From: Curvibacter sp.
GTDB lineage: Bacteria; Pseudomonadota; Gammaproteobacteria; Burkholderiales; Burkholderiaceae_C
Direction of reading: 5' to 3'
Assembly (NCBI GenBank): GCA_019233055.1
Contig: JAFAMV010000102.1
Span: 1-36,969, forward strand
Length of the DNA: 36,969 nucleotides
In this document: in pieces, positions 26,437-27,304 of the stretch
Position numbering within the stretch: position 1 is the first letter of the stretch
How the letters are laid out: every line of letters begins with the position of its first letter
The notes under the pieces: generated by a model
Told to the model about the DNA's origin: nothing
Database searches by the model: none
The model's input: only the letters and a program-made list of their open reading frames with translations
Translations under genes and position numbers: made by a program

Positions 26437-26967
26437 TCAGCATCCATTCACGTACGCGACGTGGCAGGTTGCCCCACTGGCATAGGTGCTATTCACAGCA
26501 CATGTCGCATTTGTCGGATCCAACGAGGTGAAGCAGGTGCCAGAGCCCGTGATGCTCGTGATCTTCTGCGTCACGCCAGATGTGTTCGGGATCTCTGCAG
26601 AGGAAAAGGATTCGCCAGTCAACGGAATGGCGCCATTGTCCGTCGGGAACACCGTCACGACGGTATTGCCACCTGCAGGATTTGTGAATGCATTGACCAA
26701 TGCATAAGCGAATTGAATCATGACATTCTGATTGGGAAAAATGCTGGCGAGCAATGCAGAGGCGAACAAGATGGACGCAGCCCAATTGTCTCGGCCTGTG
26801 GCCCGAAGATGGCGATAGGCAACCAAAGCAACGACCGACAAGAGCAACGCGACACCCCACTCCTTGAAGGGAGGAATTGAGGCAACTGCGGCTATTGCAG
26901 GCAGCGTCGATTCTGCTTGTACACGACTGGGGCCATGCTCAGCAAAATACCAATAGAACGACTCCAA
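26437..26967 (-). CDS. Small envelope protein with internal IPTL-like (exosortase H) sorting segment; 5' end probably frameshifted
   Basis: The open frame encodes 176 residues from a TTG at 26967. Residues 31-38 read IPPFKEWG, followed by a membrane segment (about 38-51) and a basic YRHLR cluster. That is the architecture of the IPTL-CTERM signal (IP-x-x-x-EWG, TM, Arg), but located near the N-terminus rather than at the end, as in proteins named midcut-by-XrtH. A second hydrophobic stretch (62-77) and a Cys-rich, Ser/Thr-rich C-terminal domain (Cys 145, 156, 168, 176) follow. No signal peptide exists in this frame. The adjacent frame, from GTG at 26993 (GGGGGA before it), reads MKKHIPSDSWSRSIGILLSM, a plausible signal peptide. 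One extra C in the C-run at 26929-26932 would join the two frames and give a VQA|ES cleavage site. Either a pseudogene, a sequencing error or a shifted start. Confidence 0.6.
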   Translation of the reverse strand: MESFYWYFAEHGPSRVQAESTLPAIAAVASIPPFKEWGVALLLSVVALVAYRHLRATGRDNWAASILFASALLASIFPNQNVMIQFAYALVNAFTNPAGGNTVVTVFPTDNGAIPLTGESFSSAEIPNTSGVTQKITSITGSGTCFTSLDPTNATCAVNSTYASGATCHVAYVNGC

Positions 26968-27304
26968 GAGTCCGACGGGATGTGTTTTTTCACATTTCCC
27001 CCCATGAATTTGGAAAATTTATAGAATTGCACCTGTCCCGCAGCACGAGCCACTGAGGATTGGCTCACTTTTACAATGCCATGATTTTTTGAAAATCCAG
27101 ATATCACGTAATTGAACCCGAGCAAGTGCAACGCGCCCCCAATCGCAGAAATATAATTTCACAGAGCGATCTGTATCGCGGGCAACCATATATATATTTT
27201 CCTCACCAGAAAACTGCGTATTTATAAAGCGAGAACGACGGGAGCCTGAGTTCCCCAAGAAGCTGGAGAGGCGCTCTGGCTTTGGTGGATTACACCTTGC
27301 CCCA

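Follow-up and report, generated by a model that had tools for sequence, protein, structure and literature searches.

The window, by which is meant the whole 36,969-nucleotide stretch of Curvibacter sp. DNA that was analysed, carries on its reverse strand an open reading frame of 176 amino acids (26437–26967) that opens with a TTG at 26967, closes with a TGA ending at 26437 and encodes a homologue of the midcut-by-XrtH proteins with no in-frame signal peptide (ORF list; NCBIfam NF033207.2). The first-pass annotation had described an internal IPTL-type motif near the N-terminus followed by a transmembrane segment, a basic cluster and a cysteine-rich domain, and all of these were found in the ORF, in the order motif, hydrophobic helix, basic loop, second hydrophobic helix and Cys domain. 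The XrtH-type motif IPPFKEWG occupies residues 31–38 (26854–26877) and is only weakly recognised by PF18203. A helix-pair search placed the first hydrophobic helix at 26806–26856 (mean hydropathy 1.82; helix 34–57 in the structural model) and the second at 26734–26784 (mean hydropathy 1.77; helix 60–75 in the model), with the basic cluster RHLRATGR (R52–R59, 26791–26814; loop net charge +1) between the two. The stretch after the second helix holds the tripeptide AYA (26701–26709), a candidate second signal-peptidase site. The C-terminal beta domain (26440–26685), recognised from the alignment and from strands in the model, bears four cysteines, two of which, C156 and C168, are invariant in the family alignment.

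The midcut-by-XrtH layout that had been proposed from the sequence was borne out by NF033207.2, which the ORF matches at 85.7 bits (3.8e-24; cut-off 45). The match spans profile positions 31–174 of 175 and leaves the first 30 unmatched; in other members this part is taken up by the signal peptide, so the missing part is mainly the signal peptide. The window gene is thereby confirmed as a homologue of the family with a broken start, and it is filed as such and not as an intact midcut-by-XrtH member, an in-frame signal peptide being a feature of intact members that forms no part of the NF033207 cut-off. With the family it shares the sequence of elements that follow the signal peptide and a genome that encodes XrtH; it differs in having the signal peptide out of frame, in a motif with PPF in place of PTL, and in a mature peptide without the strand-like pattern discussed below. 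In IPTL-CTERM proteins (TIGR04174, PF18203), which from their name we take to be exosortase H substrates, the motif, helix and basic residues come in the same order, but there the signal ends the protein, whereas 145 residues lie between the motif proline and the C-terminus of the window protein. This distance was 27–40 residues in 31 of 32 IPTL-CTERM controls and 99 in the other one (33 were given and one was skipped by the search pattern). On the window ORF PF18203 scored 11.9 bits, under its cut-off of 20.8, and TIGR04174 gave no match at E up to 10. The choice-of-anchor D domain NF012200 found no match in the C-terminal domain at E up to 1, and scored 15.4 bits on the C87 paralogue from the same genome, where the cut-off is 45. 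Exosortase and archaeosortase sorting signals (PEP-CTERM, PGF-CTERM) are described, in passages of PMC11980579, as a C-terminal motif, helix and basic cluster read by a membrane endopeptidase. The window protein has a short motif, helix and basic cluster as well, but its signal is internal and is followed by a second helix that itself resembles an export signal.

A signal-peptide-like segment, VKKHIPSDSWSRSIGILLSMAP, is encoded at 26928–26993 of the same strand in another frame. Its start is taken to be the GTG at 26993–26991, which stands behind GGGGGGAAAT and is preceded at a distance of four bases by a run of six G residues (26998–27003) that resembles a ribosome-binding site. The frame of this segment is one base off that of the body, and its stop ends at 26892. 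The expected signal peptide had been claimed to be present one base out of frame, and VKKHIPSDSWSRSIGILLSMAP, of a kind rare by chance (about 0.2–0.5%), bears the claim out. The end coordinate of 27005 given earlier corresponds to an ATG four codons upstream in the same frame, and we place the start at the GTG instead. Likewise, the break had been assigned to a run of C: a C4 run does lie at 26932–26929, but a break anywhere within about 26940–26920, the stretch in which the two frames would meet, would fit the sequence. A candidate first signal-peptidase site, VQA|E, is supplied by the body frame (VQA, 26922–26914).

The chance estimate comes from a search for a start codon, a ribosome-like site, a positive n-region and a hydrophobic core in the wrong frame before an arbitrary anchor; with thresholds that were set after the case had been seen, an equally good out-of-frame signal peptide occurred at 42 of 21,714 anchors placed across 406 kb of the same genome, at 16 of 3,052 GC-matched anchors and in 8 of 5,000 shuffles. 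The NF033207 score did not gain from joining the signal peptide to the body (84.9 bits when joined with X, 84.8 without), and four shuffled signal peptides joined to the body gave 85.0–85.6 bits.

Exosortase H, the absence of which would have counted against the first-pass reading, is present in the source genome, a draft of 4.97 Mb in 264 contigs. A single match to TIGR04177 (G000:C10:27604-28071) scores 183.6 bits with a cut-off of 86; its frame is open and contains the C, R and H, within GCNG, NLLRI and FAHLYLW respectively, that we take to be the catalytic residues. Five IPTL-CTERM ORFs and two further midcut ORFs (on contigs C123 and C87) exceed their cut-offs in this genome, and both of the latter start in frame and match NF033207 from profile position 6 or 7. 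A weak fourth midcut-like ORF (G000:C10:11955-12434; 15.8 bits on NF033207, 19.7 bits with a typed start) lies about 15 kb from the XrtH gene. In a sample of 399 genomes from the taxonomic family, XrtH exceeded its cut-off in 52 and midcut in 22, one of them (G295) only by including its frame neighbours, and all 22 midcut genomes were also XrtH-positive (hypergeometric 3e-22, a value that ignores kinship).

The closest relative of the window protein (G006:C50) shares 39% identity with it and has an in-frame signal-peptide-like start. No relative above 39% identity was found in 9 genus genomes, 399 family genomes and 399 order genomes, and neither a single-protein query of the named genome collection nor a search among plasmids found a closer orthologue. 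Named relatives came from Acidovorax, Xylophilus, Paenacidovorax and Paracidovorax (16 loci, seven of them full midcut and the rest IPTL-type). The possibility that orthologues start at the TTG with no signal peptide had also been raised; read by eye, the members show an in-frame signal-peptide-like start, the broken ones excepted.

Sixty midcut members above the cut-off were read by eye, after matches under the cut-off and three matches above it that cover the IPTL part only (G427, G426:C2 and G501) had been dropped; a member whose start runs into a contig end, which falls inside its signal peptide (G379_c), was kept. In four of the 60 the reading frame is probably broken ahead of the second helix. 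Besides the window copy, these were G011, with the break between signal peptide and motif, G379_a, with the break within the signal peptide (less sure, since an in-frame TTG lies further up), and G480_C538, with the break between the two helices. All four share the direction of the offset, a coincidence expected once in eight by chance. Two degraded copies were met in addition, one with its pieces in different frames (L100, in G295) and one with a C-terminal fragment adjoining an open gene (L101, G312_half). Homopolymers in 61 loci (from -40 to +120 bases of the profile-match start) did not exceed seven bases, and the longest in this part of the window gene was four. Taken together, the breaks, the degraded copies and the short homopolymers indicate that broken midcut copies are not rare and that no phase-variable tract marks them. 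The source genome holds a naturally broken copy next to two with an in-frame start, which makes for a useful comparison.

On balance we lean towards the reading that the window gene is a midcut homologue whose first export signal was put out of frame by a real and fairly recent mutation, and that intact members follow a two-cut hairpin scheme, set out below. As the first export signal is out of frame, the window copy probably makes no correctly exported product. Decay would have to be recent, since the body is stop-free and scores best of the three frames; its codon score is nevertheless low (-20, against -106 and -96 for the other two). The atypical motif, with PPF for PTL, and the atypical mature peptide were counted in favour of decay. 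Of the three origins of the break considered in the first-pass annotation, decay is the one that fits best, a sequencing error is possible and a switch found no support.

That the break is a sequencing or assembly error in an ordinary intact midcut-by-XrtH gene is the less likely explanation, if one to be taken seriously: the assembly is a draft in 264 contigs, the rest of the gene body is open and the closest relative starts in frame with a signal-peptide-like stretch. On the other side stands a codon-based frame-break scan that covered 406,611 bases of this genome, 86% of them coding, in 358 coding segments. It gave four candidate frame changes; one is undecided, and the other three, each ending no more than 3 bases from its own stop, resemble normal ends of genes. 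The scan sees only breaks between two strongly coding pieces and consequently misses the short break of the window gene itself. The assembly is not obviously rich in frame errors, and so few candidate breaks in 406,611 bases favour a real mutation. A C4 run, moreover, seems a poor site for sequencing errors, which was counted against an error here. The scan was run with cleaned training; an earlier scan trained on all long ORFs had returned 179 pairs and then 26 candidates and was swamped by antisense ORFs.

A phase-variable switch, in which slippage during replication or translation joins the two frames in a fraction of the cells or ribosomes, is improbable. The four probable breaks that point in the same direction might be quoted in its favour, but a shared direction in four cases arises by chance as often as noted above, the four lie at different places, and homopolymers are short: near the window break the runs reach C4 at most, the gene as a whole has none longer than an A6 beside the GTG, and none exceeds seven bases in the 61 loci. 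It is very improbable that the TTG start is real and that the window protein functions with no signal peptide: an open frame does begin at the TTG, but no clear ribosome site precedes it by eye, MESFYWYFAEHG is unlike a signal peptide, the relatives do have one, and the motif of a protein without it would be expected to face the cytoplasm.

Comparison of the sequences across the family suggests a two-cut layout for intact members. Their N-terminus would most likely be exported by Sec, and signal peptidase I would then release a short mature peptide. The first helix, bearing the IPTL-like signal, would run from outside to inside, placing the basic loop inside; since this loop is net positive, the positive-inside rule predicts that the second helix returns to the outside and ends at the signal-peptidase-like site, acting as a second, internal signal peptide. 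A cut by XrtH before the first helix and one by signal peptidase after the second would together remove the helix hairpin and leave an XrtH-processed short peptide and a separate exported beta domain. The comparison thus yields a concrete and testable scheme, with two cuts around a membrane hairpin and a short peptide left over.

Several counts bear on this layout. Two hydrophobic helices with a net-positive loop were found in all 59 members considered (G480_C538, included in the 60 above, was left out, as were G312_half, G295_half and the sub-cut-off G000_C10), a result that is partly built in, because the helix-pair search rewards basic residues in the loop; a cruder first pass with no such reward found the helix pair and positive loop in 55 of 57. 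The pattern [AV]xA (not before K, R or P) followed the second helix in 56 of 59 members, against 12 of 59 for a stretch of the same length farther along the protein; for strict AxA the counts were 39 and 11 of 59. These replace the values of the first pass, which set the motif proline at a wrong position in some members and located no such proline in two (strict AxA 33/57 versus 11/57). The short peptide, counted between the nearest AxA and the motif proline, has a rough median length of 16 residues, taken from the cruder pass with some anchors misplaced. In the open-licence PubMed Central literature we found no report of XrtH cleavage and no work on exosortase H acting on substrates with internal signals. 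Related systems are touched upon in passages of three sources: enzymes of the exosortase type may add a new group where they cut (PMC11980579), lipid anchoring in haloarchaea depends on ArtA (PMC7157517), and an S-layer protein carries an ordinary C-terminal IPTL-CTERM signal (PMC8671808).

AlphaFold2 models were made from eight sequences. The model of an Acidovorax member (L121; pLDDT 70) has a strand at residues 37–43, within the short peptide, and further strands between residues 110 and 189, while that of the window protein (pLDDT 63) has no strand within residues 1–31. For the C-terminal domain, considered as a possible MSP/Ig-like or cupredoxin-like fold, neither Foldseek nor a second structural comparison gave a confident match. 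The weak Foldseek matches included multicopper oxidases for the Acidovorax protein, whose best match overall had E 0.28, and MSP domains for the window protein, whose best match had E 1.1. In the second comparison, the three best rows for the Acidovorax protein (Z 5.1–5.2) start only at residue 108, beyond the peptide. Some twelve further rows (Z 2.8–3.4), for the most part CueO-type oxidases, begin at 24–36 and end at 190–192 with only 59–83 residues aligned, ranges that give the ends of the alignments only.

Because the CueO-type rows begin and end there, a further idea may be entertained, to which we give rather little credence: that a midcut protein amounts to a single small beta domain interrupted by a membrane hairpin that can be removed. 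The short peptide before the IPTL motif would be the domain's own first strand; XrtH, cutting before the first helix, and signal peptidase, cutting after the second, would excise the hairpin, and the XrtH-processed strand peptide, staying docked, would tether the domain non-covalently. A strand-like pattern before the first helix occurs in 52 of 59 members (either of two patterns; 41 and 23 singly), the window protein not among them, and in 9 of 32 IPTL-CTERM controls (8 and 1 singly) with the same patterns and stretch length; the choice of patterns followed inspection of the sequences, and residues of the signal peptide can fall within the stretch. A first count with the motif proline misplaced (27 and 22 of 58 midcut members, 7 and 1 of 32 controls) was replaced by this one.

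The GC content around the window gene (0.587 and 0.537 in two 1-kb stretches) is lower than in the genome sample (0.667), which together with the low codon score suggests a foreign origin or weak selection for this region. Divergent from the midcut gene, the forward strand between 27435 and 35223 carries a heavy-metal response regulator (TIGR01387) and sensor kinase (TIGR01386), both over their cut-offs, then two ORFs unmatched at E 1e-10 and, at 678.3 bits and so just below the cut-off of 701.45, a CusA/CzcA-like RND pump. This metal-response region is likewise of lower GC and codon score. No general neighbour gene was conserved beside midcut among 35 loci compared. In G011, G312, G243 and G179 (L059, L101, L102 and L105) the midcut gene has an IPTL-CTERM-like ORF on its own strand, no more than about 2.1 kb away; a nearby one is on the opposite strand in G379_b and G178, and there is a doubtful one in G414. 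The motif itself varies, PVDHP replacing PTLSQW in some midcut members. Some midcut proteins have extended C-terminal parts and are long (about 470–950 residues in all; L060, L112, L113 and L115–L119), and in these the motif is mostly PVDHP-like. In two others, L114 (G388_a) and L140 (G445), a domain of at least 150 residues lies between signal peptide and motif and replaces the short peptide.
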